A DNA stretch of 36,371 nt from Pirellulales bacterium. GTDB taxonomy: Bacteria > Planctomycetota > Planctomycetia > Pirellulales > Thermoguttaceae. This document shows positions 1,318 to 36,010 of the stretch, one piece after another. The notes beneath the pieces were generated by a model. The model did not search any database and was not told the origin of the DNA. It worked only from the letters and a program-made list of their open reading frames with translations. Location: assembly GCA_016935315.1 (NCBI GenBank), contig JAFGRD010000071.1:1-36371 (forward strand), in the 5' to 3' direction. Position numbers and translations under genes: made by a program. Position 1 is the first letter of the stretch, and each line of letters starts with the position of its first letter.

Positions 1318-1352
1318 GCTAGGCTCCCTTCTGCGTTGCGAACTGTGGTTTG

Positions 1353-1454
1353 TTGACGCTTGCACACTCAATGCGCCAGGGTGGCCAACGGGAGCCCAAC
1401 CTGTCCGGCCTCCCGTTGGTCGGCCTGGATCATTCACAATGCGAACATCGATCG
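1353..1454 (+). repeat. Dispersed ~100-bp hairpin repeat, copy A
   Basis: This aligns along its whole length with copy C (19248-19349) and with the reverse complement of copy B (8468-8570). The shared order is a TTGACGCTTGCAC-like left end, an inverted repeat GGCCAACGGGA (1383-1393) / TCCCGTTGGTC (1411-1421) around a 17-nt loop, and a right end GCGAACATC. It lies just upstream of the FG-GAP gene start. No transposase is associated with it, so a REP/MITE-like or structural element is the best description. Confidence 0.8.
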
Positions 1455-1804
1455 CTGGACTTCCGTGGAGGTCCTGGTGGTAGCTCGTCTTCAGGACGCT
1501 CGTCGTTCTCACGAGGCTCGGCATGGCCGCCTTTGGACCAGCATACTGCGCGGATCACTGCGGGTACAAGCAACCCACCGGACTCGCGGCGGTCCGCAGC
1601 CCTGCCCGTATTCGTTGCGGCCACGGCCAAGTCGAGGAAGCGGGCCCCCAAGAAATGGGATTGCCCCCTCTGCGGATTTCGCAAGGATAGAAGTGTTGGA
1701 TCGTGAAGACGCAACACGATGGACTAGACGGCCGCGAGGTGGTCCGATCCGCTGGTCCGACCGAAGCGGTGGGCTCTTTGGGGAAGGAGGTGATCTAGTG
1801 ATAT

Positions 1805-1882
1805 ATGGTTGTACTAGCGGGCGAGGTGGCTCCGCCTGACGACAGTCGGCGGATTGTCTCAGCGACAGCCGCCCGCCCGTGA
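1805..1882 (+). CDS. Candidate 25-residue small protein
   Basis: An ATG at 1805 opens 25 codons ending in TGA at 1880-1882; the product starts MVVLAGEVAPPDD. AAGGAGGTGATC at 1784-1795 is an unusually complete match to the 16S 3' end, although its distance to the ATG (about 13 nt after GGAGG) is slightly long. A GTG at 1799 in another frame would give only a 13-codon ORF. A strong intrinsic terminator (1916-1958) follows 34 nt after the stop on the same strand. I see no homology and no clear -35/-10 pair upstream. The same segment could instead be a structured small RNA, because GCGGGC (1816-1821) can pair with GCCCGC (1871-1876). Confidence 0.4.
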   Translation: MVVLAGEVAPPDDSRRIVSATAARP

Positions 1883-1915
1883 GGGTCTGCCTCGATGCGG
1901 ACCCCGGTCAAGACA

Positions 1916-1958
1916 CGCAAGGCCCGATTCCTCCACGGGATCGGGCCTTGGCGTTTTT
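1916..1958 (+). terminator. Rho-independent terminator (plus strand)
   Basis: AAGGCCCGAT (1919-1928) pairs perfectly with ATCGGGCCTT (1940-1949) around a 10-nt loop. A T5 run at 1954-1958 follows. The complementary strand has no T-run after the stem, so this ends a plus-strand transcript. The flanking recognised genes are both on the minus strand, which implies a short plus-strand transcript upstream. Confidence 0.8.
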
Positions 1959-1998
1959 CTGGCCAGTACATGTCGGAGTGCGGCCGGACGTGAGGGCC

Positions 1999-2550
1999 TC
2001 AGCGCCGTGGAGTGCCTCGGCGGCCGGCCTCCATCGCCAGCAATCGCTGTTTCATGGCCGTGGAGCCGGGCGCGGAAAACGCGCCTGGGCGGCCGCTGGC
2101 CGGCAGCACGCGGTGGCAGGGAACGATCAGCGGAAAGCGGTTGGCGGCCATGCAGTTGCCCACGGCCCGCGCCGCCCGCGGAGAACCCGCCAGAGCCGCC
2201 AGTCGTCCATAAGTACGTACCTCGCCGTAGGCAATCTTCCGGCATTGGGCTGTTACGCGGCGTTGGAAAGCGGTGAGGCCCTGCGTGTCGATTCGCACGT
2301 CGCGGAAATCGACCGGTTGGCCCGATGCGTAATCTTGCAGCCGCCGAACGAGTTGCGCGTTCCAGTCGCCCGGCTCGGCCGCTGCCCGCAGTCCGGGGTC
2401 CAGGGCCCGGATCGCGGCGCGCGAGGACGCATGGCCGAAGGTGAGCTGCTTCAGGGTTTTCCCCGCACCGATCAGGGCGATCCAGCCCAAGCGACTGGGG
2501 GCAACGACCAGGATTGGAGGGGCCTCTTCTCGAAGCCGGGCGGTGCTCAT
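1999..2550 (-). CDS. ogt: Methylated-DNA--protein-cysteine methyltransferase
   Basis: This is a direct-reversal DNA repair protein. It transfers the alkyl group from O6-alkylguanine (or O4-alkylthymine) to its own cysteine. It encodes 183 residues, a normal length for an Ogt/MGMT with a short N-terminal domain. The active-site motif PCHRV is present with the acceptor Cys at about residue 145. It is preceded by the helix-turn-helix region YGEVRTYGRLAALAGSPRAA and the conserved AVGNCMAANRFPLIV, and followed by the loop containing FSAPGSTAMKQRLLAME. I chose the ATG at 2550 because AAAAGGA sits about 8 nt upstream; a TTG seven codons earlier is less likely. It is divergent from the 2715 gene and the two share a 164-bp intergenic region. 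No Ada-type regulatory domain is attached. Confidence 0.93.
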   Translation of the reverse strand: MSTARLREEAPPILVVAPSRLGWIALIGAGKTLKQLTFGHASSRAAIRALDPGLRAAAEPGDWNAQLVRRLQDYASGQPVDFRDVRIDTQGLTAFQRRVTAQCRKIAYGEVRTYGRLAALAGSPRAARAVGNCMAANRFPLIVPCHRVLPASGRPGAFSAPGSTAMKQRLLAMEAGRRGTPRR

Positions 2551-19251: not shown

Positions 19252-19349
19252 CGCTTGCACACTCAATGTGCGAGGGCGACCAACGGGATCCCGACTTGTC
19301 CGGCCTCCCGTTGGTCGGCCTAGATCATTCACAATGCAAACATCAATAG
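19248..19349 (+). repeat. Dispersed ~100-bp hairpin repeat, copy C
   Basis: This fills the whole gap between the two convergent giant genes. The stop of the plus-strand gene (19249-19251) and the stop of the minus-strand gene (19343-19345) both lie inside it. GACCAACGGGA (19278-19288) pairs perfectly over 11 bp with TCCCGTTGGTC (19306-19316) around a 17-nt loop. No T-run follows directly, so it is not a textbook terminator, but its place suggests a role at gene ends. Confidence 0.82.
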
Positions 19350-22300
19350 AGGGTGGCCAGTAACTGATCCACCGCGTCCCAGGCCGATTTGTCCCGGGCC
19401 ACCGAGGAGTGCTGGATGCTGGCTCGGTCGAACTCGTAGAGCCAGTCCGCCTTCGCCCAAAGGGTCCCGTCGGTGGTTGTGGCCGGCGCCGAGTCCCCTC
19501 CCAGTACGGCGTCGTGCAGCGACGCCGGACCGCCGTCGGCCGGTGGTCCCGCCTTGGCTCCCTGCGCTAGCGGGGCGGTAATCAGCCGCAAGGCGTTAAG
19601 GAAGTGCGTCTGGTTGTTCCGCGCCAAGAGTGTGTCGGTGGCGTTGACCCGCGCGTCGCGATTGAAGTCGAAGGCGAAGTCGATCGGCGCCGGGCTGAGG
19701 AAGCTACGGGGGTTGTTCCGCGCCAAGAGCATGTCACTGGCGTTGACCTTGGCATCGACGGTTGAATTGCCCGCCTCGCCTACGGCGTTGCCGAAATAGA
19801 ACACGTCGGCCTCGGCCAGCCCCGTCGTGGGACCGGGCAGCACGGTCACTTGCAGCCATCGACCGGTCAGCACGTAGTCGGGCCAGATCAGCGTCACTCG
19901 ATCGGAGCCTGACACACCGTCTCCGGGCCGCACCGAGACGACCGTCGGCTGGGGCGCGGCCGACCACGCTTCCGGGTCGTTGCTGTTGCCGGCGCGGAAC
20001 TGGAAATCGTCCGCACCGAGCAGGGCCCCATCCGGCAGGCCGACCATGTCGACCATGACGCCGTTGATGCCCCGAACGTAGCTGGTGTAGTTGGCAAAGG
20101 TGGCCGTCTCGCCCGGCAGAAGCGCTTTCTTATCCGGCGCGACGGCTGCGTTGTCCTGTGCATTGGCCACGGGGTTGTAACCGTCGAAGATCGAGTTGTT
20201 GTAGAAGACGTGACGGCCGACGACCTGGGACGCCATGGCAAACGGAATGGAACCGGGGCTCGGCGCAGCATGTCTCCAGCTATCCGCGTCGGCGCCCCAG
20301 AACCCCACTCCCAGCCGGTGAAGCGAAGCGCCGCGGCCGTCGGCCTGGATCGGCCACGGGGCGCGATCGTCGTAGACCACGACGTCTTCGATCAGTCCCA
20401 GGTCGGGATGTTCGGGAGAAGCCGGCCGGATCAGCAGCAACTCTTCCCCGCCGTTGCTGAGCTTGCCGCCATAGCCGCCGACAAGAACTGCGGATTCGTC
20501 GATGCCGTGCACGATCCGGAAAGTCGCCAGACGATCCGCGTTGTTGGCGTTCTGCGTGTTGAAGGAAACGACGACAACCGTGCCATGCGGCGCGATCTCC
20601 GTGCCGACGGGGAACCAATAGTCGACACCGCCGCGGAGTTGCCAGTTCGTCAGGTTGACGGTCTGGATGGTCGGATTGTAGATCTCGACGAACTCCAGGT
20701 CGTCGGAATCGCCTTCCTCGTCCGAATGGTAATGCAGTTCGCTGATGAACAACGGGCCGATGCGCGGGCCGCTGTTCTCGCCCTCCTCGGAGTCAAACGT
20801 CGGCACCAGCATCGGATAGAATTCGCCCTCGCCGTCGGGCCAGCGGCCGAACGACTCGCCAGGCGCCGCCGGGCCGAATCGGGCCTGATCGACGATTTGC
20901 AGCATCTCGCCGTCCGCGCCGGTCGCCATCAGCCAAACGTTGTCGCCCCGCGTGCCGTCCAGCGCGAAATGGTTCTCCCCGGGGGTCAGCGGCGTGGGGT
21001 TGAAGTCGCTTTCGTCGAACACCAGGTAGCCGCCGGCCGGAATGACGGTCCCGTCGGGAATCCGGAACTTGCGGACCTCGTAGCTGGAGTCGCTCAAATA
21101 CCAGCCGCCGACGTCGACCGGCTGCCCGGACCGGTTGAACAGCTCGATGGCATCGGTCAGCGGCGGGTCGGTGTGGGAAAGAACTTCGTTGATTACCACG
21201 TCGGTTCGCGGCGTCGTGCCCGCGCGACCGGGCGAGCCGCCGTACTCCCCGCTGGCGCACCAATGGGCGGGATCGTTGAGGAACGCCGTTCGCTGCGGCT
21301 CGGTCTCAGGAACGGCGGTCGGGGCGACCAGTTGCAGCGAGGCCCCGTCGCCATCGGCCCATGCCGGCCAGCCCTCGTCGTCATCGTCGTCGTACCCGAA
21401 ACGGAGCACAATCTGGCCCGACCGGTCCGCCAACTCAAGCCACCCGCCGCCGTTGGAGAGGAACCCGTTGCAGACTCCCGCCACGGGCACCTCGGCCCCG
21501 TAGCGGGCCCGGAACGCGTCCGCGTCGGAGACTACGACGGCAAACTGCCCCGGACCCAACACCACGATGTCCCCGCCCGTGAACTCGAACTCAACGCTGC
21601 CGCCAAGGCGGAAGCCCGTCAGGTCGAGGGACAACGGACCCGTGTTTTGCAGCTCGATGAACTCGAAGTCATCGGCGTCGAAGAACCCCAAGGCGATCTC
21701 TTCCGAGGTCGGCTCCAGGGGATGGTAGTTCAACTCGCTGACGACCAGCAAGGCACTCAGTTGGGCCTCGGCGTTTTCCTCGCCAAGGGTCGGCGCCACC
21801 ATCGGATTCACCGCGCCGGTGCCGTCCGGCCAGCGTCCGAACGAGCCGCCCGCGACGGCCATCCCGTACTGTACCTCATCGGCAAACCGCACCAGCTTGT
21901 CGTTCTCGGCCTCGGTCAACCAGACCTGTCCGCCTGCGTCGTCCAGAGAGAACTCGTCGTCGTGTCGCGTTCCGGGATTCGGGTTCCACGGGCCGTTGGG
22001 GTTGAAGTCTTGCTCGTCGAACACCACGTACCGCCCGGGCTCGACCACCGTGCCGTCGGGAATCCGGAACTTGCGATAGTCGTCGCCGGAACTGCTCAGG
22101 TACCACCCGCCGACGTCGATCGGTCGCGTGGTCGTGTTGACCAGCTCGATGGCGTCGACCTGGGGGAGCTCCGTATGGGCGAGCACCTCGTTGATCAGCA
22201 CGTTGCGGGCGGCTGTGCCGCCCAGGACTCCGGGCGAGCCGCCATATTCGGTGCTGCTGCGCCAGTTATCCGGGTCGTTGTAGTATCCGGCCAGATCGAG

Positions 22301-25300
22301 GATTTCCAATGAACTGCCTTTGCCGTTCGCCCGAACCGGCCAGTCGCCCGAATTGCCGTAGGTGAAGCTCAGGATCACCGTGCCGGTGCCGTCGATCAGC
22401 GTAACCTGCTCGCCGTTGTCATCGAGCGAGTCGTCGTATTGTCCCACGACCAAGACTCCGGTGGTGTCGTAGCGTGTCGCAAACGCCGCCGCGTTGCCGG
22501 CGACCACAACGCGTTGAGCCGGCTGGAGCGTCAGATCGGGGAAGGCCAGCGACACACCCTCGATCAACCGCATCCCGCTCAGTTGAATCGGATGACCGGC
22601 CACGTTGAGCAATTCGATGAACTCGAAGTCGTCGCGCGTGAACTCGGGGTCGACGGCCAGCTCGGCCGGTGTGGGGTCGTGCGGGTGGTAGTTCAGCTCG
22701 GTGACAGCCAGGATCTCGACCTGCCGGGCGACCATGCCGGGCGAGGCCGGCGCGGCGATCCAACTCGTTGCCGCATTGCCCCACTGGTCGATGCCGCGGC
22801 GGTGCAACGAGTGGCCGAACCCGTCCGCCATGGTCGGCCAAGGGGCCTCGTCATCGAAGACCACCTCGTCTTCCAGCAGCATCGGCACGAAGTCGGGTTC
22901 GTCGGGCGGCGCCTGGCCGGCCCGCATCAGCCGAACGCTGTCGCCGCGATTGCTCAGGCTGCCGCCGTAACCACCGACGATGTCGACCCACGGCTTGACG
23001 CCGTAATGGGCCTCGAACGTCTCCAGCAGTTCGGCGTCGGCGGGGTCGAATCGCACTACGGCCAGCGCCTCGCGCGGGGCCAACACGGTGTTCGCTTCGA
23101 AGTCGAACTCGACGCCGCCGCGAAGCTGCCAGCCGGCCAGATCGACCGTCTCGGCCATGGGATTGTAGATCTCGATGTACTCCAGATCGCTGGGGTTGAC
23201 GAGATCACCCGGATCGCGCGGATGGTACATCACCTCGTTGATGATCAGCGGCCCGATTCGCGGGCCGCTGTTTTCGCCGGCCCCGGGCGTCAATGTCGGC
23301 GCGGCCATGGGATAGAAACCGCCTTCGCCGTTGGGCCACCGCCCGGACGATTCGCCGTCGGCCACGGCACCGTAGTCGGCCTGGTTGGCGAAATGCGTCA
23401 CGTTGCCGGTCGTATCGGTCATCAGGAGAAACACCTGCCCGCCCTCGAGTGCATTGAGCAGGAAGCCCGGGCGGTCCAGCGCGGGATTGAAGTCCGCGCC
23501 GGTAAACACGACGTATCCATGCGCCTCGATGACCGTGCCGTCCGGAATCTGGAATCTCCTCGGGTCGCTGCCGGTGTCGCTAAGATACCAACCGCCCACG
23601 TCGATGGGTCCCCGGGCCGAGTTGTAGAGCTCGATCTGGTCGTTCAACGGGTCGTCGGCATGGGCCAGCACTTCGTTGATCACCACTTCGGCAACTCCTC
23701 CGGTATCCGCCTCGCCCGGCGACCCGCCGTACCGCGTGCTGGGGCGCCAGCTCGCGGCCTCGGCGTAGTTGCTGTAGATGTCGATCAACTCCAGCGAGCT
23801 CCCGTCGCCGTCGGCCCGCTCGGGCCAGGGCTGATCATCGCCGTAGCTGAACGAGAGAACCCGCTGCCCTGACGCACCGGTTAGCGTGATCCGCTCGCCG
23901 CTGTTGAGCAGGCTGCCGACGTACTCACCGCCAACGGAAACCGTGGTTCCGTAGCGGATCTCGAAGGCCGCGCGGTCATTGACAATCACCATCCGCTGGC
24001 CGGCGGCCAGGGTAACGGCCGGAAAGTCGAAGAGCACGCCCTCGGTCAGCCGCATCCCGCTCAGGTCGACGTCATCGCCGGCGATGTTCAGCAGCTCGAT
24101 GAACTCGAACGAGTCGTCGGCCAATGCGGGGTCCGCGGCCAACTCGGCCGCGGTCGGTGGATGCGGGTGATAGTTGATCTCGGTCACGGCCAACTTACCG
24201 ACTTGCAGGTCGACCGTTCCCGGCGAGGGCGCGGCAGCGGTCCAGCTTGCAGGGTCGTTGCCCCACAGGCCGACCGCGCGCCGATGCAGCGAGTGACCAT
24301 CGCCCGCGGCCGTGGCCGGCCAGGGCTCCTCGTCGTCGTAGCGGACTTCGTCCTCCAAGGGGTGCGGAATCACATCAGGTTCCCACCAGGCGGGGGCGTC
24401 GGCCCGGAGCAACCGCACCACGTCGCCCTCGTCGGTCAGGTTTCCGCTGAAAGGGCCGAACATGGCCACCGGATCGGCCAGCCCGTAGTAGTCGTTGAAC
24501 GCATCCAGCCTGGTGGCGTCGGCCTTCGGGTCGAAAGAAACGACCAGGAGCGTTTCACCCGGCGGGAACCAGACCGGATTGGGAGACTTGGAGTTGGGAA
24601 AGTTGTAGTCGATCACTCCGCGGATCCGCCAGTTGCGCAAATCGATCGTCTCGGTCGTGGGGTTGTAGATTTCGACAAACTCGAACAGGTCGGGATCGAC
24701 GTCATCGCCCGGCGCCGGCGGATCGTACATGACCTCGCTGATGAGGAACGGGCCCACGCGCGGACCGGAGTTGTCGCTGCCGAACGTGCGGCTGCGCATC
24801 GGATAGAGATCTCCTTCCGCGTTCGGCCAGCGGCCAAAGGACTCGCCGTTTAGCGCCGCGCCGAACTCCACGTGGTCGGCAAAGTGCGTCAGGTTGCCCT
24901 CGGCATCGGCCTGCATCAGCCACACGTCGTCGCCGAACGCGCTGTCGAAGGCGAATCCGCCCGCCCCGGGGTCCCAGCGGCCCGGGTTGAAGTCGCGCTC
25001 GTCAAACAGCACGTACTGACCCGCCGGGATGACCGTGCCATCGGGAATGCGGAACTTCTTCAGATCGTGCGCCGACTCGCTGAGATACCATCCACTGATA
25101 TCGACGTCCTGGTCGGTCGTGTTGTAGAGCTCAATCGTATCGGTCAGCGGCAGGTTGCTGTGCGAAAGCACCTCGTTGATCACGACGCTGCCGACCGCGC
25201 TGCCCGCCCGCCCCGGCGAACCCCCGTACTCGACACTGGCTCGCCAGTTCCAGCCGCCCGCATAGCTGTCGCCCGGGTCCACGATCTCCAGACTGCTGCC

Positions 25301-28300
25301 GAAGCCGTCGGCCCATTGCGGCCAATCGCCGTCGTCGTCGTAGAAGAAGTCGAGGACGACCAGGTCGAAGGGGTCGCGGACGATCAGTTGCCCCCCGCTG
25401 TTGTGCAAGTCTCCCTTGTATTGGCCGACGACGTTCACTGCGGTTCCATACCGGGCGGCAAAGGCCGCCGGATCGCGGACCACCACGGCGTATCCACCCG
25501 GCTGAAGGATGGTCTCGGTCAGGAGCTGAAACTGCACGGTCCCGTCCAGTTGCACGCCGGCCAGATCGAGCGGCTGGTCGCTCAGATTCGTCAGCTCGAT
25601 AAACTCAAAACCCTCGCGGTCGTCGAAGCCGGCCGCGCGTTCCTCCGCGGTGGGCGGAAAGGGATTGTAGTTGAGCTCCGTCAGCCGCAGATAGTCTTTC
25701 AGTGCGTCAAACGTGTTGATGCTGACGGTGATGTGCACCGTGGCCAGGCTGGAATCGAGCGTCCCGTCGCTGGCCCGATAGGTAAAGCTGTCGGGCCCCG
25801 CGTAATCCGGATCCGGCTGATAGACGAACGAACCGTCCGCTTCAAGCGTCAGAGACCCGAACGACGGCAGACTGGCCAGGGCAGCCGTCAGGTCGTCGCC
25901 ATCGGCGTCGAAGTCGTCGGCCAGCACGCCCGGCGCCGCAATCCGGCGTTCGGTGTTCAGCGCCACCCAAACGCTGTCGTCGCAAGCCACCGGAGCGTCG
26001 TTGACCGGTGTGATCGTGATCGTCACCGTGGCGAGGTTCGAGTCGCCGAGTCCGTCGTTGGCCCGGTATGTGAAGCTGTCGGAACCATAGAAGTCGGGAT
26101 CGGGTGTATAGCCAAAAGACCCGTCGGGCAGCAACCGGAGCGTGCCGTGGGGCGGCGCGTTGACTACCGCGGCGGAGATCGGGTCGCCGTCCGCGTCGTG
26201 GTCGTTGGCCAACACGCCCTCGGGCGCCGAGATTTCCAGCAGTTGGTCTTCCTCGGTCTGGTACACGTCGTCGCCCGCCGTCGGCAACTCGTCTTGTGCA
26301 TTGCCGAAATCAAGATTGGAGAAGACTTCATCGCTCTCGATCTCGATCGTGTAGGTCCCCGGCGCGGCGGGGTACGTCTGCACGTACCCCTCGCGAGACG
26401 CCTGCCGAATGCGATAGGTGCCGGTTGGCAGGTCGGAGAAGCTGTAATGGCCCTCCGCGTCGGTTTGCACGACGGGCGAATCGCCCATGGCCTCGAACAA
26501 ATAGGCCGCGTTGCCAGTCTGGGTTCCCACAAGGACCCGATCGCCCAGCGCGGCCACGGAGATGCCGAACGCATCCCATGCCCCGGGCGAGGGATTGGCG
26601 AAGGTTTGCAGCAGTTGCCCGGTCGAGCCGTCGAACAGATAGGCGGCCCCGCCGCTGCCCTGTCCGAGATCGTCCCAGCGGTTGTCCCACATGGCGCCGA
26701 CCAGGGCGTCGTCGCCCAATGCCGCCACGCAGAATCCGAATTGCTCGCCGCGAAACGGTGTGGGGCTGGTCAGTACGTGCAGCAACTCGCCGGAAGCCCC
26801 GTCGAACAGGAAGGCGGCTCCCGCGCCGTCCACGCCCGAATCGTCCCAGCGGGCGCCCACCAGCACGTTGCTGCCCACGGCCACCACGCTGCGGCCGAAA
26901 CCGCTGGGCTCGTCGGTGGCGGCCTGCGTGGGATTCACGAAGCTCTGCAGCAAGTTGCCGGTGGCGCCCTCGAAAAGGTAAACCGCACCGATTCCCTCGG
27001 CGCCCGTCTCGTCCCATCGGGCACCGACCAGCACGTTCTCGCCCATGGACGCCACGCAGTAGCCGAACTGGGCGTTTTCCGACGGCGTGGGGCTGACGTA
27101 CGTTTGCAGCAACTCGCCCGTCTGACCGTCGAAAAGATACGCGGCGCCGGCGTCTTCAAACTCGACGGTCACCCCATCGGCGGCCAGAATGTCGGCGAAG
27201 CGGGCCCCGACCAGCACGTGGTTGCCCACCGCCGCCACAGCCCGACCGAACTGGTCGTTCTCCCGGGGCGCCGGACTGTAGAACGTCTGCAGCAGTTCGC
27301 CCGTCTCGCTGTCGAGCAGGAACACGGCGCCGGCGTCTTCCGCCATCGTGTTGTCCAACGGCGTCCCGATCAACACGTTGTTGCCCAACGCCGCCACCGC
27401 GCGGCCGAACTTGTCTTCCTCGGCCGATGCCGGGCTCGTGAACGTGCGCAACAACTCGCCGGTCGTTCCGTGGAACAAATAGGCGGCGCCGGCGTCCGGC
27501 TCGCCGCCCACCTCGTCGTAGTGACTCGCTACCAGGACGTTGTCGCCGACCGCCGTCACGAAACGCCCGAACTGGCTCCATTCGTCGGGAGTCGGGTTCT
27601 CGAAGGTCACCAGCGGAACGTCGGTGGCACCGATCGGCTGCAATTGCAGGCTCCAATCCGCCAGCCCCGGTTCGTCGGCATCGCGGACATGGTCCCGATC
27701 GAGATCGTCGAACACCATTCCGCTCAGACTGCCTTCATAAACCGGTTCGACCGTGATCGTAACCGTGGCCACCGGGGAGGCGGCCGTGCCGTCGCGGGCG
27801 CCATAGGTGAACCTGTCGGTGCCGAAGAAATCCGCCTCGGGCGTGTACGTGAACGAGCCGTCCGGTTCGAGCTGTACGCTTCCGTGCTGCGGCGGGTCGA
27901 CCAGTTCGGCCGTCAACTCATCGCCGTCGGCATCCTGGTCGTTGGCCAGCACTCCGTCGGCCACGGCCACCACCAGCGTCGTATCCTCGTTGACGCAATA
28001 ACTGTCGGCGGCCGCCACCGGCGCCCAGTTGCCCGCGTTGCCGAAATCGAAGCCCGAAAGATGCTCGTTGCCACCCAGCTCGATGGTGTAGGGTTGGCTG
28101 CCGGTCGGCAGTGTTTGCGTGAAGCCTTCCGGCACGACCTGGCGGACGCGATAGGTGCCCGGCTCGAGGTTTGCGAAGCCGTATTGGCCGTTGGAGTCGG
28201 TCACCGTGGCACCGCGCAGCAGAGCACCTTCGAAGAGGTACACCGACCCGGTGCCGCTGTTTTGGCGATAGGCTCCCACGGCCACGCTGTCGCCCACCGC

Positions 28301-30421
28301 GGCCAGGCAATAGCCGAACTCGTCACTTTCGGCCGGTGCGGGATTCTCGAAGGTCTGCAGCAGGTCACCCGTTGCCGAATCGAACAGATAGGCGTTGCCG
28401 GCATTGGCACCTCCGGCGAGATCCAGACAGGCCCCCACCAGCACGTCGTCGCCCATCGACGCCACGGAGCACCCGAACTGGCCGAGCAGGGAGGGGGTGG
28501 GGTCGATGAAGGTTTGCAGCAGTTGTCCCGAGGTGGCGTCGAACAGATAGGCGGCCCCGGCGTCTTCGGCCCCTCCGGGATCGAAAGGCGCTCCGATCAG
28601 TACGTTCCCACCCACCGCCGCAACGCTCTGGCCGAACTGGAAGGTCGGCGTCGGGCTGACAAACGTTTGGAGCAATTCGCCGCTGTCGCCGTCGAACAGA
28701 TAGGCGGCGCCCGTGTCGCGGCCGGCCGTGTCGTCCAGATGAGCACCGATAAGCACGTTCCCACCCACTGCGGCCAATGCCGCGCCAAACTGGTCGTCTT
28801 CCTCCGGCGTGGGATTGGCGAAGGTCCGCAGCAACTCTCCGGTGACGGCGTCGAACAGGTAGACGGCGCCGGCGTTGGCGGCACCGGCGTCGTCGCGCGG
28901 CGCACCGACCAGCACCTTGTCGCCCATGGCCGCCACGCAATAGCCGAACCCCTCGTCGAGTCCCGGCGAGGGCTTTCGATACGTCTGCAGCACGTCGCCG
29001 GTGGTCACGTCAAAACGATAGGCCGTTTCGGCCCGAGCGGCCCCGACCAGGGCGTCGCTGCCCAGGGCGTCGCTGCCCAGGGCCGCCACGGCGCAAGCGA
29101 ATCCCCCGGAACCGCCCGTGGGCATGCGAAACTCCTGCAACACGTCGCCGGTGGCCCCGTCGATCAGGTAAGCTTCGCCCGCCGTTGCATCACCCAGGGC
29201 CCCGACCAGGAGGTCGTCGCCCAGCGCCGCTACGCTGAACCCGAAGAAGTCGTTGCTCTGGCCGGAAGGACTCGACAGAACGCGCTGCAGTCTGGCCTGG
29301 CCGCCGACGCCGCGGACTTCGACCGACCAGCCCTCCAGAGGCGGCTCGCCGGCGTCACGGGCACCGTTGGCGTCGAGGTCGTCGAACACGGCCCCGCCGA
29401 TCGAGCCGAAGGCCAGTGTGTGCAGCGTGGCTTCGCCGAGAATCACGTTCTCCCACGATACCTCGCCAAGCCCGGAGCGCTGGAAAGGCGTATCGCCCGG
29501 CGAAAGTCCGAACGTCACGTCGCCAGGGCCGGTGCAGACCAGCTCGACGTAGGCCAGCCGCGCCCAATCGGGAAACATACCCGCGTTCGCCGTCGTCGTC
29601 TCTCCGCCCAACTCGTCGACGGATCCGCCGGGGTCGTCGATGCCGCCCGAGGCGGCCGCGTCAAAATCGAGACTCACCACCTCCGTCACGTCGGCCAAGG
29701 CGGTCGTATAGTGCAAGTCTAGCGTGCCGCTGCGGATGCCGCCGGTGGGCATCCCGATATCTTGGACCCAGACCTCCAGGTAGCAGGTGTCGCCCACCGC
29801 AACGCTTTCAATCGACGCCGGCAAGGAGGAGCCTGGCAACGACGACGGCGACGGTGCCAGTCGTGGAATCAGGGCCACGTTGATCTCGGGCCGCGGTGTG
29901 AATGGATCGATCAGAGTGCCCAGGTGAGTTCCCGCTTCGCCCTGGATCGTGTAGCTCAGCGTCAAATCCCCGAACAGATCGACTCCGGCGTGCTCGTCTC
30001 CGATCACGTCTCCCAAGGAGTGCGTGCCGTTGAGTTGGTAGCCGAATTGGCCGGCGACCCGGAGATCGGTGTCTTCCTGAAACACTCCCAGATTCTGGGC
30101 CGGGTCGCCGGTGAAGATGCCCTGCTCGGAATAGAGGATGTATCCGTTGATGGTCACCCCGTCGGTATCGACCACCAGACCACCCGGCTCGACGACCAGA
30201 TCCACGATTCCATCGCCCGGCTGACCGGGGAGTATCCCCATGTCGCTCTTGTCCGGCGCGGCGCCGTAGGGATGGACCGACAGGAGCTGCCGCTCTTCGA
30301 GCAGTTCGACCTGCAGCCGGCGGCGACACCGGGAAACGCTATGTCTTTGTCTGCCGGAAGAGGCCTTCGGCCTCCAGGACTTCCGGCCACCGGTTCCGCG
30401 GGAGAAATGTCGAGGCTTCAT
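19343..30421 (-). CDS. Giant secreted protein: nested propellers plus lamin-tail array
   Basis: This encodes 3692 residues. The ATG at 30421 follows AGGA by 9 nt. Order: basic N-terminus with an LEPR-XLL-like motif (VELLEERQLLS); a module shared with the PEP-CTERM protein; an SdrD-B-like domain (about 338-795) split by a seven-repeat propeller (about 378-735, repeats of the form FGxxVAAxGxxVLVGA...AYLFDxxTGxLLQTF); a cadherin-like/Big_9 domain (about 800-894); a second SdrD-B-like domain (about 897-1374) also split by seven propeller repeats; two more cadherin-like domains (to about 1570) with DxDGDxL-type motifs; eleven lamin tail domains (about 1577-3390); the C-terminal module with two dockerin-like repeats (about 3394-3614); and the tail WLYEFD...AVDQLLATLY. 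It is surely exported and probably a cell-surface or matrix protein; the binding partner is unknown. Its last ~650 bp mirror the end of the convergent 2375-residue gene. Confidence 0.92.
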   Translation of the reverse strand: MKPRHFSRGTGGRKSWRPKASSGRQRHSVSRCRRRLQVELLEERQLLSVHPYGAAPDKSDMGILPGQPGDGIVDLVVEPGGLVVDTDGVTINGYILYSEQGIFTGDPAQNLGVFQEDTDLRVAGQFGYQLNGTHSLGDVIGDEHAGVDLFGDLTLSYTIQGEAGTHLGTLIDPFTPRPEINVALIPRLAPSPSSLPGSSLPASIESVAVGDTCYLEVWVQDIGMPTGGIRSGTLDLHYTTALADVTEVVSLDFDAAASGGIDDPGGSVDELGGETTTANAGMFPDWARLAYVELVCTGPGDVTFGLSPGDTPFQRSGLGEVSWENVILGEATLHTLAFGSIGGAVFDDLDANGARDAGEPPLEGWSVEVRGVGGQARLQRVLSSPSGQSNDFFGFSVAALGDDLLVGALGDATAGEAYLIDGATGDVLQEFRMPTGGSGGFACAVAALGSDALGSDALVGAARAETAYRFDVTTGDVLQTYRKPSPGLDEGFGYCVAAMGDKVLVGAPRDDAGAANAGAVYLFDAVTGELLRTFANPTPEEDDQFGAALAAVGGNVLIGAHLDDTAGRDTGAAYLFDGDSGELLQTFVSPTPTFQFGQSVAAVGGNVLIGAPFDPGGAEDAGAAYLFDATSGQLLQTFIDPTPSLLGQFGCSVASMGDDVLVGACLDLAGGANAGNAYLFDSATGDLLQTFENPAPAESDEFGYCLAAVGDSVAVGAYRQNSGTGSVYLFEGALLRGATVTDSNGQYGFANLEPGTYRVRQVVPEGFTQTLPTGSQPYTIELGGNEHLSGFDFGNAGNWAPVAAADSYCVNEDTTLVVAVADGVLANDQDADGDELTAELVDPPQHGSVQLEPDGSFTYTPEADFFGTDRFTYGARDGTAASPVATVTITVEPVYEGSLSGMVFDDLDRDHVRDADEPGLADWSLQLQPIGATDVPLVTFENPTPDEWSQFGRFVTAVGDNVLVASHYDEVGGEPDAGAAYLFHGTTGELLRTFTSPASAEEDKFGRAVAALGNNVLIGTPLDNTMAEDAGAVFLLDSETGELLQTFYSPAPRENDQFGRAVAAVGNHVLVGARFADILAADGVTVEFEDAGAAYLFDGQTGELLQTYVSPTPSENAQFGYCVASMGENVLVGARWDETGAEGIGAVYLFEGATGNLLQSFVNPTQAATDEPSGFGRSVVAVGSNVLVGARWDDSGVDGAGAAFLFDGASGELLHVLTSPTPFRGEQFGFCVAALGDDALVGAMWDNRWDDLGQGSGGAAYLFDGSTGQLLQTFANPSPGAWDAFGISVAALGDRVLVGTQTGNAAYLFEAMGDSPVVQTDAEGHYSFSDLPTGTYRIRQASREGYVQTYPAAPGTYTIEIESDEVFSNLDFGNAQDELPTAGDDVYQTEEDQLLEISAPEGVLANDHDADGDPISAAVVNAPPHGTLRLLPDGSFGYTPDPDFYGSDSFTYRANDGLGDSNLATVTITITPVNDAPVACDDSVWVALNTERRIAAPGVLADDFDADGDDLTAALASLPSFGSLTLEADGSFVYQPDPDYAGPDSFTYRASDGTLDSSLATVHITVSINTFDALKDYLRLTELNYNPFPPTAEERAAGFDDREGFEFIELTNLSDQPLDLAGVQLDGTVQFQLLTETILQPGGYAVVVRDPAAFAARYGTAVNVVGQYKGDLHNSGGQLIVRDPFDLVVLDFFYDDDGDWPQWADGFGSSLEIVDPGDSYAGGWNWRASVEYGGSPGRAGSAVGSVVINEVLSHSNLPLTDTIELYNTTDQDVDISGWYLSESAHDLKKFRIPDGTVIPAGQYVLFDERDFNPGRWDPGAGGFAFDSAFGDDVWLMQADAEGNLTHFADHVEFGAALNGESFGRWPNAEGDLYPMRSRTFGSDNSGPRVGPFLISEVMYDPPAPGDDVDPDLFEFVEIYNPTTETIDLRNWRIRGVIDYNFPNSKSPNPVWFPPGETLLVVSFDPKADATRLDAFNDYYGLADPVAMFGPFSGNLTDEGDVVRLLRADAPAWWEPDVIPHPLEDEVRYDDEEPWPATAAGDGHSLHRRAVGLWGNDPASWTAAAPSPGTVDLQVGKLAVTEINYHPHPPTAAELAADPALADDSFEFIELLNIAGDDVDLSGMRLTEGVLFDFPAVTLAAGQRMVIVNDRAAFEIRYGTTVSVGGEYVGSLLNSGERITLTGASGQRVLSFSYGDDQPWPERADGDGSSLELIDIYSNYAEAASWRPSTRYGGSPGEADTGGVAEVVINEVLAHADDPLNDQIELYNSARGPIDVGGWYLSDTGSDPRRFQIPDGTVIEAHGYVVFTGADFNPALDRPGFLLNALEGGQVFLLMTDTTGNVTHFANQADYGAVADGESSGRWPNGEGGFYPMAAPTLTPGAGENSGPRIGPLIINEVMYHPRDPGDLVNPSDLEYIEIYNPMAETVDLAGWQLRGGVEFDFEANTVLAPREALAVVRFDPADAELLETFEAHYGVKPWVDIVGGYGGSLSNRGDSVRLMRAGQAPPDEPDFVPMLLEDEVVFDDEAPWPTMADGFGHSLHRRGIDQWGNAATSWIAAPASPGMVARQVEILAVTELNYHPHDPTPAELAVDPEFTRDDFEFIELLNVAGHPIQLSGMRLIEGVSLAFPDLTLQPAQRVVVAGNAAAFATRYDTTGVLVVGQYDDSLDDNGEQVTLIDGTGTVILSFTYGNSGDWPVRANGKGSSLEILDLAGYYNDPDNWRSSTEYGGSPGVLGGTAARNVLINEVLAHTELPQVDAIELVNTTTRPIDVGGWYLSSSGDDYRKFRIPDGTVVEPGRYVVFDEQDFNPNGPWNPNPGTRHDDEFSLDDAGGQVWLTEAENDKLVRFADEVQYGMAVAGGSFGRWPDGTGAVNPMVAPTLGEENAEAQLSALLVVSELNYHPLEPTSEEIALGFFDADDFEFIELQNTGPLSLDLTGFRLGGSVEFEFTGGDIVVLGPGQFAVVVSDADAFRARYGAEVPVAGVCNGFLSNGGGWLELADRSGQIVLRFGYDDDDDEGWPAWADGDGASLQLVAPTAVPETEPQRTAFLNDPAHWCASGEYGGSPGRAGTTPRTDVVINEVLSHTDPPLTDAIELFNRSGQPVDVGGWYLSDSSYEVRKFRIPDGTVIPAGGYLVFDESDFNPTPLTPGENHFALDGTRGDNVWLMATGADGEMLQIVDQARFGPAAPGESFGRWPDGEGEFYPMLVPTFDSEEGENSGPRIGPLFISELHYHSDEEGDSDDLEFVEIYNPTIQTVNLTNWQLRGGVDYWFPVGTEIAPHGTVVVVSFNTQNANNADRLATFRIVHGIDESAVLVGGYGGKLSNGGEELLLIRPASPEHPDLGLIEDVVVYDDRAPWPIQADGRGASLHRLGVGFWGADADSWRHAAPSPGSIPFAMASQVVGRHVFYNNSIFDGYNPVANAQDNAAVAPDKKALLPGETATFANYTSYVRGINGVMVDMVGLPDGALLGADDFQFRAGNSNDPEAWSAAPQPTVVSVRPGDGVSGSDRVTLIWPDYVLTGRWLQVTVLPGPTTGLAEADVFYFGNAVGEAGNSTVDAKVNASDMLLARNNPRSFLSPAPIDFAFDFNRDARVNATDTLLARNNQTHFLNALRLITAPLAQGAKAGPPADGGPASLHDAVLGGDSAPATTTDGTLWAKADWLYEFDRASIQHSSVARDKSAWDAVDQLLATLY

Positions 30422-30755
30422 GGGTCCATGTCCTGCCAATAGGGAAGCGATCCGCGTGTGGGGTTGCGGCAGAGCAATCCATCATGTCCACCGCGCCAAG
30501 GAACATCAAGGGCCCGGCCTGCTCGTGCCTGCGCCTGGATTTCCCTCTACTATGGAAACCGACGTTTCGCCGCAAGACCCGCCAGCGAACCCCGGTGAAC
30601 GTTCGAGGGGGGGCCCGGAAGGCGAAACGATCCACCCCGAATGCGGGTCGGACCGCAATTGCGATGGCCATTCTGCCGGACTACACTGGTGGGCAATCGG
30701 CGGCATTCGGACCGCCTTCGACCGAGAAAGCCCCCGTGCCACGCGAGGAATCACC
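30422..30755. other. 334-bp divergent intergenic region
   Basis: This lies between the start of the minus-strand giant gene and the start of the secreted protein at 30756. It holds a plus-strand promoter candidate (30659-30687). For the giant gene I see only a weak minus-strand pair around 30550-30580 (TTGCGG and ATAGTA-like), not strong enough to call. Confidence 0.5.
30659..30687 (+). promoter_or_regulatory. Candidate promoter for the 30756 gene
   Basis: TTGCGA (30659-30664), a 17-bp spacer and TACACT (30682-30687) lie about 70 bp upstream of the start codon at 30756. Confidence 0.45.
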
Positions 30756-32180: not shown

Positions 32181-32351
32181 GGCCGTTCAGCGCGCCTGTG
32201 CTTCGTGGTTGCCCGGCGATACGGCGCGACCGACAGTTTGCACACGGCCTCCGCCTGGGCTATGGTAGCAACGTTGGGCTCGGGCTTGCCCTTGCCGGCT
32301 CGTCGGCCCGGGAATTGCACAAGTGAATCTCAAGCAAAGAGGAGTCTTTCC

Positions 32352-33161
32352 GTGAAACAACTCAGTACTCCGCCGCGACGGCGGCATCTTCGGGGCTGGA
32401 CAGCGACGGCGATTGTCCTGGGCGTGATTTCGATGGCGGGGACACCCACCGCCGAATCGGCTGAATGGAAGAGCGGCATCCCCTGGCAAGAGCCGAAGAC
32501 CATCGACCCCGGGCCGCCGGGCGGTCCGCCCGCCGACGCCATCGTGTTGTTCGACGGCAAAGACCTCTCACAATTCGAAGGCGGCCAGCAGTGGCTCATC
32601 CGAGACGGTTGCGCGGTCTGCCAGGGCGGCGGCATCACCACCAAGCAGGCCTTCGGCGATTGCCAATTGCACGTCGAATGGGCCTCGCCCTCGGAGGTCA
32701 AGGGCAGCGGGCAAGGACGCGGCAACAGTGGCGTCTATCTGATGGGCCGGTACGAAGTGCAGATTCTCGATTCGTACGACAACCCAACCTATTTCGACGG
32801 ACAGTGTGGTTCGATCTACAAACAGAGTCCGCCGCTGGTCAACGTCTGTCGCAAACCGGGGGAGTGGCAGACGTTCGACGTCATCTTCGAGGCCCCCCGC
32901 TTCGACGACCAGGGGCAGCTCACCCAGCCGGCTACGATGACGGTGCTGCACAACGGTTTGCTGATTCAGAACCATTTCGAACTGCTGGGCAGCACGGCGT
33001 GGCACGAACCGCCGAAGTATCATGCCCATCCGCCGAAGCTGCCGCTGCACCTCCAGAACCACGGCAACCCTGTGCGATTCCGCAACATCTGGATTCGTGA
33101 GCTCAAGCAGCGCGTCACGCCAAAGACGGAAGAAATCGCCGAAGAGGGCGAGGACGAATAA
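32352..33161 (+). CDS. DUF1080 (3-keto-disaccharide hydrolase family) secreted protein
   Basis: This encodes 269 residues. I chose the GTG at 32352 because AGAGGAG ends 7 nt upstream and a signal peptide follows directly (basic RRRHLRGW, hydrophobic core, AESA cleavage near residue 37). Longer upstream readings lack a signal. The mature part has the LamG-like DUF1080 pattern: IVLFDGKDLSQFEGGQQWLI, the middle GRGNSGVYLMGRYEVQILDS with the conserved NSG and EVQILDS, YDNPTYFDGQCGSIYKQSPP, GEWQTFDVIFEAPRFD, and a C-terminal LHLQNHGNPVRFRNIWIREL. Members of the family hydrolyse 3-keto-glycosides, and planctomycetes carry many copies. The acidic tail EEIAEEGEDE is specific to this protein. Confidence 0.93.
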   Translation: MKQLSTPPRRRHLRGWTATAIVLGVISMAGTPTAESAEWKSGIPWQEPKTIDPGPPGGPPADAIVLFDGKDLSQFEGGQQWLIRDGCAVCQGGGITTKQAFGDCQLHVEWASPSEVKGSGQGRGNSGVYLMGRYEVQILDSYDNPTYFDGQCGSIYKQSPPLVNVCRKPGEWQTFDVIFEAPRFDDQGQLTQPATMTVLHNGLLIQNHFELLGSTAWHEPPKYHAHPPKLPLHLQNHGNPVRFRNIWIRELKQRVTPKTEEIAEEGEDE

Positions 33162-33232: not shown

Positions 33233-33261
33233 AAAAAGCCGGACCTGCGGACAGGTCCGGC
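33233..33261 (-). terminator. Rho-independent terminator of the Cys-rich gene
   Basis: On the minus strand GCCGGACCTG (33261-33252) pairs perfectly with CAGGTCCGGC (33247-33238) around the 4-nt loop TCCG, followed directly by T5 (33237-33233). This ends transcripts of the 34048-33395 gene after a 3' UTR of about 135 nt. On the plus strand the stem is followed only by CTGGGTTCTC, so it may stop the DUF1080 transcript less efficiently. Confidence 0.85.
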
Positions 33262-33394
33262 TGGGTTCTCTCAGACTGCAACGTTAGGGCCAACAGGGCA
33301 GGCCCCGAAGTGCCAGGGTGGGATCCGATCCGTCGCGTGTGCCGCCAGCCGGCGCAACGCTTCGCCGGCACGATCCCACCCCAGTCCGGGATGG

Positions 33395-34048
33395 TTAGGT
33401 GGTGGGCTCTGGCGCGGCCGCCGGCGCTTCCGCGGGGGCTGCTTCCTCTGCGGCCGGGGCGCAAGTCTCCGGCTCACAAGTCTTCGGGCAGCACGTCTTC
33501 GGACGGCACGTCCGCAGGCAACCCAGCAGCTTGGGGCGGCAGGTCTTCGGCGCGCACGTGTCTACCGGTTCGCAAGCCTTCGGGCAGCACGTCTTCGGAC
33601 GGCAGGTCCGCAGGCAACCCAGCAGCTTGGGGCGGCAGGTCTTCGGCGCGCACGTGTCGACCGGCTCGCAAGCTGCCGGTTCGCAAGCCGCCGGCTCGCA
33701 GGTCTTCGGCTCGCAGGTCTTCGGGCAGCACGTCTTCGGACGGCATGTCCGCAGACAATCCAACAACCTGGGGCGGCAGGTCTTCGGCGCGCAGGTGTCT
33801 ACCGGCTCGCAGGCCGCTGGCTCGCAGGTCGTCGGGCAGCACGTCTTCGGACGGCACGTCCGCAGGCAATCCAACAGCCTGGGGCGGCAGGTCTTCGGCG
33901 CGCAAGTGTCGACCGGCTCACAGGTCGCGGGCTCGCAGGCCGTTGGGCAGCACGTCTTCGGACGGCAGGTCAAGGCGGCATCTGCCGTCATGACGATCCC
34001 CAACACCACCAACATGGCGGCGACGCCAATCACAACAAAACGATTCAT
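33395..34048 (-). CDS. Secreted Cys/Pro-rich tandem-repeat protein
   Basis: This encodes 217 residues. GGAGGG 7 nt upstream supports the ATG at 34048. A signal peptide covers about residues 1-24 (MNRFVVIGVAAMLVVLGIVM, then TADA). The mature chain is four full units and one partial unit. Each unit begins TCRPKTCCP, has one to four CEPxx blocks, and continues to CEPVDTCAPKTCRP followed by a LLDCLR/LLGCLR end. I count 38 cysteines, none in the signal peptide, and very many prolines. An Ala/Pro/Glu-rich tail of about 20 residues closes it. The units differ mainly by the number of 5-residue CEPxx blocks (2, 2, 4, 1), a sign of minisatellite-type expansion. Planctomycete cell walls have been described as rich in cystine and proline; a disulfide-linked wall or surface protein is therefore a reasonable inference, not shown. 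It has its own promoter and terminator. Confidence 0.88.
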   Translation of the reverse strand: MNRFVVIGVAAMLVVLGIVMTADAALTCRPKTCCPTACEPATCEPVDTCAPKTCRPRLLDCLRTCRPKTCCPTTCEPAACEPVDTCAPKTCRPRLLDCLRTCRPKTCCPKTCEPKTCEPAACEPAACEPVDTCAPKTCRPKLLGCLRTCRPKTCCPKACEPVDTCAPKTCRPKLLGCLRTCRPKTCCPKTCEPETCAPAAEEAAPAEAPAAAPEPTT

Positions 34049-34565
34049 TCGAAACCCTCCTACTTAAAGGTACCGTAGCGTTAAGGGACTCGCTCTAATC
34101 GCCGTCACTCATTTCCTTCTCCCCAACCCTGACGGCTTTCGATCGGGGAGAACTTCAAACTACGTGGCTACCGCACTGCCGGTCGTGTTGCTGCCCTGCT
34201 AAAGCTCGACGACCGGGGTCATGTGGTAACGAGTGCATAGCATTGGACGCTAGGCTAGCATAGTCGCACCGCTTGTCAACCAGGGGTAGAGAATTTATAT
34301 GCCCTGGGACGCCACGGCGTTTTGGGAGCTATGCGTCAAATATCGAAAAAATACTAGGCTCAGACAGATTGCACCAGGGGGTGACGCCGAGCCAAGGCCG
34401 GATTCCAGAAAAACCGACCCCGCGAGTAGCGCCACAAATCATTGACACAAAGAGACTTGTGGCGTCTCACCCCATCCGCTGACTCGTTGCTGACGCACGA
34501 CACCGACAACGGCCGGATGGCCCCTGGAAACGTGAAAAGCCTGCAAATGACCGGAAAATGCCGTT
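34049..34565. other. 517-bp intergenic region
   Basis: This gap between two minus-strand genes includes the promoter (34252-34279) and a leader of about 200 nt of the Cys-rich gene. Bases 34290-34370 are more AT-rich than the surroundings. I see no convincing terminator for the lipoprotein gene and no supported coding region. Confidence 0.5.
34252..34279 (-). promoter_or_regulatory. Promoter candidate for the Cys-rich gene
   Basis: On the minus strand a perfect TTGACA (34279-34274), a 16-bp spacer and TAGCCT (34257-34252) give a start near 34245 and a leader of about 200 nt. Confidence 0.5.
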
Positions 34566-35186
34566 TCAGCGGCGGACGGAATTCTGGGAATTTTCCGGCG
34601 TGCGAGCCTGAGAAGCCCCCTGAGATGCCCGACGAAGCCGCTCCTGCTGGGCCCACTGCAGCTTTTCCTGCATCTGCTGAAGGTTCTCGAAGTCCAGTTG
34701 CAGCGGTGGCTCGCCATCGAGAAACGGAACGGCCACACCGGCGATACGCCATCCCTCCGGCTCCCGGCGGAGCATCCACAGGTATTCGACCGTGCGCATC
34801 TGCATCTGTCCATCGATCTCGGCCAGATCCGTCCATTCGCAGTCGACCGCAGCTCGGTCGCCGGGCAAATACGCGACCCGCCCCAGTTTGAACTTGGCCG
34901 TATCCGTGCCGGGAGGAGCCACCTGCAGACTCATCGCTGCCGCTTGTTCGCGCGCTGTTTGCGTCAGCATCTGTTCGGTCGTCTGGTCGTCGCCGGCGCG
35001 AAAGGCGTTGAGGAATCTGTCGACCGACGCGGCCGGTCCATCGGGATCGCTCGCGACGGCTTGCGTGACACGCGTGCCGCCGTCCGATCTCTCGGCCGGG
35101 GGCTGGGGCGAATCGTCGGATGGACCGCAGCCGATCACGGAAGAGCAGAGAATGGCCGACATGGCCGTCCAGAGTTTGCGCGACAT
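34566..35186 (-). CDS. Predicted lipoprotein with an NTF2-like region
   Basis: This encodes 206 residues. AGGAGA 8 nt upstream supports the ATG at 35186. The N-terminus is a lipoprotein signal: MSRKLWTAMSAILCSSVIGC with lipidation expected at Cys20, followed by a Ser/Asp/Pro-rich linker. From about residue 53 there is a small alpha/beta domain, SVDRFLNAFRAGDDQTTEQML ahead of strands ending VEYLWMLRREPEGWRIAGVAV. The order helix, helix, then curved sheet with a final W-R-I-A-G-V strand resembles NTF2-like/SnoaL-type folds, used for binding small ligands or for protein contact. A Gln/Arg-rich coiled-coil-like segment (about 170-195) ends it. Its cellular task is unknown. It is divergent from nrdR. 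Confidence 0.8.
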   Translation of the reverse strand: MSRKLWTAMSAILCSSVIGCGPSDDSPQPPAERSDGGTRVTQAVASDPDGPAASVDRFLNAFRAGDDQTTEQMLTQTAREQAAAMSLQVAPPGTDTAKFKLGRVAYLPGDRAAVDCEWTDLAEIDGQMQMRTVEYLWMLRREPEGWRIAGVAVPFLDGEPPLQLDFENLQQMQEKLQWAQQERLRRASQGASQARTPENSQNSVRR

Positions 35187-35542: not shown

Positions 35543-36010
35543 ATGAAGTGTCCTTTTTGCCAGAGCGACAACGATCGGGTGATCGACTCACGAGCTAGCG
35601 AAGACGGCTCCGCAATCCGTCGACGGCGCCAGTGCCTGGCGTGCAAGCGCCGGTATACGACCTACGAACGCATCGAGGGGACCAGCGTCAAGATCATTAA
35701 GAAGGACGGTACACGGGAGCCGTTCGATCACGGGAAGATCAAGCGTGGATTGGAGAAGGCTTGCTGGAAACGGCCTATCACCGACGCGCAAATCGAAGCG
35801 GTTATCGTCTCGGCAGAGAACGATCTGGAGACCAATTTCGAGTCGGAAGCAGCAAGTCACCACGTGGGCGAGTTGGTGATGCAGCATCTCCGCGAGTTGG
35901 ATCAGGTTGCCTACGTACGCTTCGCCAGCGTGTATCGAGAGTTCAAAGACGTCCACGATTTCGTCAATGAACTGGAACCCATGCTGGACAGAGCCCGCCA
36001 CGACCAGTAG
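35543..36010 (+). CDS. nrdR: Transcriptional repressor NrdR
   Basis: This encodes 155 residues, the usual NrdR size. The N-terminal zinc ribbon has Cys3, Cys6, Cys31 and Cys34 (MKCPFCQSDNDRVIDSR and RRRRQCLACKRRYTTYE), the usual DNA-binding part. An ATP-cone domain follows from about residue 49 (VKIIKKDGTREPFDHGKIKRGLEKAC). NrdR senses ATP/dATP and represses ribonucleotide reductase genes by binding NrdR boxes. The ATG at 35543 gives the standard start MKCPFC even though the ribosome binding site is weak. No nrd structural gene is in the window. A short inverted repeat (36011-36017 with 36027-36033) follows the stop directly but lacks a T-run. Confidence 0.96.
   Translation: MKCPFCQSDNDRVIDSRASEDGSAIRRRRQCLACKRRYTTYERIEGTSVKIIKKDGTREPFDHGKIKRGLEKACWKRPITDAQIEAVIVSAENDLETNFESEAASHHVGELVMQHLRELDQVAYVRFASVYREFKDVHDFVNELEPMLDRARHDQ

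Follow-up and report, generated by a model that had tools for sequence, protein, structure and literature searches.

A cysteine-rich repeat protein gene behind a pseudoknot leader RNA in an order-wide Pirellulales locus: a candidate envelope component

A locus consisting of a lipoprotein gene, a promoter, a pseudoknot leader and a gene for a Cys-rich protein is conserved across the order Pirellulales, apparently in one copy per genome; this order-wide locus with its pseudoknot leader is the strongest result of the analysis. In the window, that is, the whole analyzed stretch of 36,371 nt (contig C112 of the own genome G000, 7.1 Mb, 95% complete), the Cys-rich reading frame (Table 1) is a real gene and belongs to such a two-gene locus, with a folded RNA ahead of the gene. 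Family, order and class below are the GTDB ranks around the source genome, with 119, 396 and 197 genomes searched, respectively. The product may be a component of a thiol-cross-linked envelope matrix, with YTV proteins and peptidoglycan beside it, a proposal for which we see the chances as evenly balanced.

Table 1. Features of the locus in the window.
Feature	Position	Strand	Remarks
Cys-rich repeat protein gene	33395..34048	–	ATG start, 217 aa, 38 Cys, 33 Pro; probably exported
Putative Sec-type signal peptide MNRFVVIGVAAMLVVLGIVMTADA	33977..34048	–	read by eye; related MNR leader peptides order-wide
Cys/Pro repeat array (TCRPKTCCP, CEPxx, CAPKTCRP, LLxCLR blocks)	33455..33970	–	
C-terminal tail, Ala/Pro/Glu-rich	33398..33454	–	of a type common to many relatives
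Structured 5' leader, ~200 nt	34049..34245	–	start inferred from the –10 box
Leader 3' part (pseudoknot and tail), covariance models R1/R2	34056..34166	–	96.4 bits with R1, whose training set includes the window sequence
Pseudoknot stem A	34117..34152	–	TTCTCCCCGATC (34152-34141) with GGTTGGGGAGAA (34128-34117)
Pseudoknot stem B	34101..34136	–	GCCGTCA (34136-34130) with TGACGGC (34107-34101)
Shine-Dalgarno GGAGG	34056..34060	–	invariant in 27/27 aligned family leaders
Promoter TTGACA-16 nt-TAGCCT	34252..34279	–	conserved in comparison
Intrinsic terminator	33237..33262	–	11-pair stem, then TTTTGTT
NTF2-like lipoprotein gene	34566..35186	–	206 aa; lipobox ..SSVIGC by eye; upstream locus partner

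The cysteine-rich gene and its repeats

The composition given in a preliminary description of this DNA, which called the chain Pro-rich with 38 Cys in 217 residues and built of TCRPKTCCP-type blocks, is correct. TCRPKTCCP occurs five times, at residue offsets 26, 63, 100, 147 and 179, and the numbers of CEPxx blocks along the protein (2, 2, 4 and 1, counted by eye) are as stated there. Tandem DNA repeats of 96, 111, 141 and 237 bp with 85–93% matches cover positions 33460–33971. The N-terminus is hydrophobic and ends in TADA, and this signal-peptide-like start makes the earlier claim of export probable. In the AlphaFold model (mean pLDDT 55) the leader helix (residues 1–20, pLDDT 94) is the sole confident helix, and beyond it the model contains no fold.

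Neither Pfam (E up to 1) nor NCBIfam assigned a family to the window protein, and it was matched neither by the YTV profile PF07639 nor by Keratin_B2_2 (PF13885). A PDB sequence search with it produced one match, a NodT-family lipoprotein at E 0.039, which gives no family, and searches of titles and starts of abstracts in the published literature found no description of the protein or of its leader.

An antisense reading frame of 222 aa (33399–34067, plus strand) has its wobble position in common with the Cys-rich gene, similar antisense frames exist in relatives, and the differences by codon position (7, 8 and 16) do not tell the two frames apart. The Cys-rich frame is favored since its start, ribosome-binding site, leader peptide and leader RNA are conserved, the promoter and GGAGG also being conserved in its orientation; moreover, dozens of genomes have proteins with a similar leader peptide and Cys content, which makes it more than a chance reading frame. 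We give negligible probability to a low-complexity artefact and to another gene being read here in antisense.

The gene had also been credited with a ribosome-binding site, a terminator and a promoter of its own. The first two are present (Table 1), the terminator coming from a scan that returned three terminator-like sites vs. 1.3 expected in shuffles. For the promoter the outcome is mixed: a consensus scan found none and missed the TTGACA/TAGCCT promoter, but TTGACA is conserved in comparison of loci. The terminator region may be common to the Cys-rich gene and its convergent neighbor at 32205–33161 (plus strand), encoding a 3-keto-disaccharide hydrolase family protein (PF06439, E 1.6e-41). 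On the other side of the locus, a gene for an NrdR-type regulator (PF22811 and ATP-cone; 35543–36010, plus strand) adjoins the lipoprotein gene. The window also contains a giant ORF of 3698 aa (19343–30439, minus strand) with repeated stretches, which we take to be cadherin-like, FG-GAP-like and lamin-tail-like, and with a presumably dockerin-like end.

The leader RNA and the spread of the locus

Twelve aligned loci have in common TTGACA, a –10-like box and the leader up to GGAGG and ATG, with TTGACA invariant. The distance from TTGACA to ATG is 215–248 nt in 29 family loci, the exception being L023 with 306 nt. Thirty leaders were collected, 29 by pattern and one (L050) placed by hand; alignment A4 comprises 27 of them (without L023, L033 and L055), A5, 26 (also without L039), and A6 further leaves out L024, L026, L036, L042 and L198, as well as the near-duplicates L190, L193, L196, L206, L210 and L213.

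The 3' part of the leader contains two interleaved stems, the arrangement of an H-type pseudoknot. Of the seven stem B pairs in alignment A5 (n = 26), five are standard throughout the 26 sequences, with hardly any variation, while stem A has standard pairs in 75% of cells and changes on both sides in all ten pairs. The overall covariation score is 0.351 vs. 0.238 in shuffles (none of 500 reaches 0.351) and at most 0.171 for slid partners, all these values being inflated by the relatedness of the sequences; two of the five covariation measures are less clear, namely both-side changes (a value that 21/500 shuffles reach) and further pair types (reached by 146/500). In a set of 48 family and non-family leaders, with stem B sites picked by a motif rule, stem A scores on average 19.7 with its own partner and 14.8 with swapped ones, the best of 2000 permutations reaching 16.4; in 11 leaders the own partner outscores every other, and the median share of swaps that are equal or better is 0.15. 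RNAalifold applied to A4 yields stem B only, and a 5' leader domain with a AACAGGGC loop is seen by eye.

With a conserved structure, compensatory changes and a constant place upstream of one gene type, the leader has the features of a cis-acting leader RNA, and it may regulate the output of the gene. At the gathering score, Rfam release 15 has no match in the window or in eight loci, and with E up to 5 the region 33900–34600 matches only ncS16 (E 3.6), upstream of the leader. A possible relative is the Rhodopirellula-1 motif, listed by Weinberg et al. (2010; PMC2864571): its entry there marks it as probably cis-regulatory, from Planctomycetes (and Proteobacteria) and lacking an Rfam accession, but ambiguous as an RNA.

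To trace the locus we used covariance models of the last ~110 nt of the leader (R1, 111 nt, and the wider R2). R1 matches once in each of 36 of the 119 family genomes, training sequences included; 35 of these matches lie at most 160 nt from a CxPxx protein match (24 of them within 15 nt), and the 36th (L177 in G030) also precedes a Cys-rich protein starting with MNR. Order-wide, R1 matches once each in 63 of 396 genomes, including 29 outside the family (E 5e-9 to 7e-3). At 28 of these 29, GGAGG is followed after 7–8 nt by the ATG of an MNR protein containing 13–27 Cys, a TTGAC(A/T) box lies 227–294 nt ahead of the ATG, also in 28, and a lipoprotein gene is upstream, again in 28. As R1 includes neither gene, the adjacent Cys-rich and lipoprotein genes are independent support for the matches. 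The locus that has no lipoprotein gene in the 4.1 kb read is L198 (G675, 405–2069, minus strand), where a weak match (E 5e-5) precedes a gene for a 555-aa beta-helix-like protein with an MNR leader and 6 Cys; this match is perhaps due to chance, or the leader was captured. R2 matches in 15 of 197 class genomes, all of them in the order, and the four new matches carry both genes; these four are outside the training set, in genera represented there.

The family, order and class searches scored no more than the best 32, 9 and 19 candidates per genome, respectively, under strict filters, and a second copy may be missed, so leader absences and the single copy per genome are soft. Among these candidates no genome yields a second leader match, and no broad riboswitch regulon is seen.

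Same-strand upstream homologues of the lipoprotein gene are present in 13 relative loci, and a profile detects the gene at all 16 family leader loci tested. Residues 19–20, the GC of the lipobox, are invariant in the 14 lipoprotein sequences. The predicted structure (mean pLDDT 82) resembles NTF2-like folds (best Foldseek E 1.9e-4, TM 0.36 by query length), and there are weak SnoaL and DUF4440 matches under the Pfam cut-offs. The upstream protein differs from NTF2-like and SnoaL-like proteins in being probably lipid-anchored and in staying under the Pfam cut-offs.

Relatives, thiol density and YTV proteins

The paralogs that the preliminary description had suggested looking for exist in the own genome, which contains three more genes with the CxPxx grammar: C78 (164 aa, 30 Cys), C44 (237 aa, 54 Cys; both lengths run from stop to stop) and C106, in which TCAPATC blocks are joined to a YTV match barely over the cut-off of 21 bits (21.6). 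When one genome per species was scanned, 18 loci were obtained, 16 in genomes titled planctomycete MAGs and two in genomes titled "Nealsonbacteria" with the same gene type. CxPxx proteins are matched in 45 of 119 family genomes at E 1e-3. Across 31 distinct chains, the window gene and the YTV hybrid among them, a spacing of exactly five residues is found for 601 of 963 neighboring Cys pairs; past residue 24, eight amino acids (A, P, C, T, R, K, E and V) account for 92% of all residues.

The TTGACA leader pattern is absent from MNRR-type genes (e.g., C44), from C78 (L002) and C106 (L005), and from L032 and L038; similarly, no lipoprotein gene was found beside L032, L038 (flanks of only ~1.5 kb), C44 or C78. 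The C78 paralog holds a partial leader match (L002, 1433–1493, plus strand; 24.4 bits over 61 nt), and with this apparent leader remnant and no upstream lipoprotein gene it looks as if it had been duplicated from the main locus.

Outside the family the leader peptide is alike (MNRxLxFGIAIFFAVVGIALxGGE), and the repeats are mostly of Gly/His/Cys types (HGCHGC, CHGR, CDGGC) or CCAPEPT. The share of Cys pairs with spacing five falls from 73% in the family to 11% outside, but the median Cys fraction after residue 24 is similar, 0.166 in 22 family proteins (from 25 loci, without L047, L051 and L142, and with L119 cut at a contig end) vs. 0.172 in 32 outside ones, excluding L198. Since the Cys fraction is similar while the repeats differ, we infer that thiol density (~17% Cys), not sequence, is under selection. 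A point against the envelope matrix reading is that some relatives swap repeat Cys for Ala or other residues (L033, L044 and L047). In one genome outside the family (G470; L097/L178) the leader-borne gene has a CHGRDRC core, the leader and leader peptide outlasting the repeat type.

A profile search of 392 phylum genomes matched the repeat family in 21. Its extension beyond the GTDB family was rejected on this evidence, as the out-of-family loci that were read consisted for the most part of 15-nt simple repeats or of wrong frames; a few plausible Cys-rich proteins (L097, L099) were among them. With the C44 protein as query, 57 of 396 order genomes gave a match, 19 of them outside the family, and the CxPxx grammar may reach further than the family.

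The repeat number differs between genomes, as the claim of active expansion would have it: in G020 and G021, from one genus, the flanks are ~94% identical over ~1.6 kb on each side and the chains are 278 and 173 aa long. This difference is consistent with repeat expansion or contraction, but mis-assembly could also explain it.

YTV profile matches are found in 113 of the 119 family genomes, and the CxPxx module is common to the window protein type and YTV proteins. Among 26 YTV-type ORFs (from 28 loci, picked by a motif rule, several of them cut or interrupted), tandem CxPxx units number at least two in 11 (shuffles predict 0.6) and at least four in four (none in 200 shuffles). Against a link, the module could be convergent in YTV proteins. 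Among the loci checked, only genome G042 places a CxPxx gene beside a YTV gene: there, a 747-aa YTV ORF is followed ~375 bp downstream by a CxPxx gene of the MNRR type, both on one strand (L076, 1686–5144, minus strand).

Envelope role, alternatives and known systems

Under the proposed mechanism, the promoter and pseudoknot leader RNA lie ahead of the gene, and its product would be exported and mostly unstructured, conserved in thiol density rather than in sequence; the thiols may cross-link via cystine bonds in the envelope matrix, where the protein would work beside YTV proteins and peptidoglycan, with the NTF2-like lipoprotein as its probable partner or anchor. Published data on planctomycete walls provide the chemical setting. 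According to PMC3035269, SDS-resistant envelopes are rich in proline and cysteine and stabilized by disulfides, as described for envelopes without peptidoglycan. When walls of Tuwongella were prepared, the highest scores reportedly went to Cys-rich YTV proteins, which were confined to the SDS fraction (PMC8567305). In Planctopirus limnophila, a YTV protein counts among the essential proteins restricted to planctomycetes, and a role in wall rigidity has been suggested for it (PMC10632474).

The idea of a disulfide-linked wall, put forward in the preliminary description, is plausible as judged from sequence: the Cys/Pro-rich composition, the signal-peptide-like start, the CxPxx module in YTV proteins and the wall chemistry fit it. 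On the other side, of the known oxidation routes DsbA is not found in the own genome (at 95% completeness; it is found in 3 of 19 genomes searched), nor is VKOR (found in 3 of 119 family genomes), and the own genome has MurC (380 bits). A strong MurC match (best E below 1e-40) occurs in 28 of 119 family genomes, 22 being over the curated cut-off, the others having at best a distant Mur-ligase-like match. The leader locus is present in 26 of the 28 MurC-bearing genomes vs. 10 of the 91 others (p 6e-16, ancestry uncontrolled), and by genus the repeat family is found in 21 of 21 genera with MurC vs. 8 of 19 without it. Because MurC is kept in the own genome and the locus occurs mainly in MurC-bearing genomes, the protein is not a simple replacement of peptidoglycan.

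The same counts favor a thiol protein associated with peptidoglycan, a periplasmic filler or linker that would work only in the presence of a sacculus, perhaps via the Ala/Pro-rich tail, and forming no wall itself. However, no tree stands behind the MurC table and a single loss in one clade could yield the same counts, the locus is kept in ten MurC-less genomes, and Pfam finds no peptidoglycan-binding domain in the window protein; we regard this reading as unlikely. We attach the same low probability to an exported binder of metals or metalloids, in which surface thiols would bind Cu, Zn, Fe or similar and the leader would sense the need. The out-of-family repeats, consisting mostly of Cys, His and Gly, agree with it, CxC and CxxC making up 120 of 601 Cys pairs in 32 proteins, and the His-rich CHGR versions there look equally suited to metal; the failure to find DsbA and VKOR in the own genome points the same way, as does a separate metallothionein-like Cys protein, under the Pfam cut-off, near one leader locus (L022, 7311–8117, minus strand). 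The latter (269 aa, 40 Cys, CxC/CxxC repeats) is encoded ~0.5 kb downstream of the leader-borne gene and convergently with it. In the family, on the contrary, His accounts for 0.2% of mature residues and CxC and CxxC for 8 of 640 Cys pairs (22 proteins), which is not metallothionein-like spacing, and the window protein and nine leader-associated outside proteins match no Pfam family above cut-off (seven of the nine, no NCBIfam family either).

A conserved N-terminus followed by differing Cys-rich cores would also suit a RiPP-like modified peptide, with a conserved leader and a hypervariable core, and one protein (L206) weakly matches the family of Cys-Xaa-Xaa-Xaa repeat radical SAM targets (E 0.011, 15.8 of 50 bits). 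But the N-terminus resembles a signal peptide, the recurrent neighbor is a lipoprotein gene, and the chains, which reach 278 aa, would be long for a RiPP precursor, all of which makes this reading very improbable.

In an extended form of the envelope matrix reading, which we consider rather doubtful, a pseudoknot RNA that is riboswitch-like, specific to the order and outside Rfam would determine how much each genome makes of a single envelope matrix protein. The repeat grammar of this protein (CxPxx, HGC, CHGR, CCAPEPT) would be exchanged while selection keeps Cys at ~17%, thiol density being the conserved function, and in a planctomycete that has peptidoglycan it would be the bacterial counterpart of keratin-associated proteins. 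For the proteins behind the cystine- and proline-rich envelopes of planctomycetes, for which YTV proteins are the candidates named in the papers cited here, the Cys-rich locus would add a second candidate and a clean genetic handle, its conserved structured RNA being easier to trace across the order than the protein repeats. The locus also amounts to a natural experiment on divergent repeats at similar thiol density, with a possible link to the retention of peptidoglycan.

Of the known systems, YTV proteins (PF07639) resemble the window protein in being Cys-rich, repetitive and planctomycete, several with CxPxx linker or tail arrays, but most of those read exceed it in length (up to 885 aa) and carry aromatic repeats; YTV-type genes with examined starts have no TTGACA-type leader pattern upstream, whereas the leader matches followed up precede MNR proteins. 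Vertebrate high-sulphur keratin-associated proteins (PF13885) have a similar CCxPx pentapeptide-like grammar, and among eight proteins scanned three relatives (L003, L020 and L009) pass the cut-off of this family, a likeness that is likelier to reflect convergence than common descent. Chlamydial OmcA and OmcB, from the same superphylum, are exported Cys-rich envelope proteins, disulfide-linked in chlamydiae.
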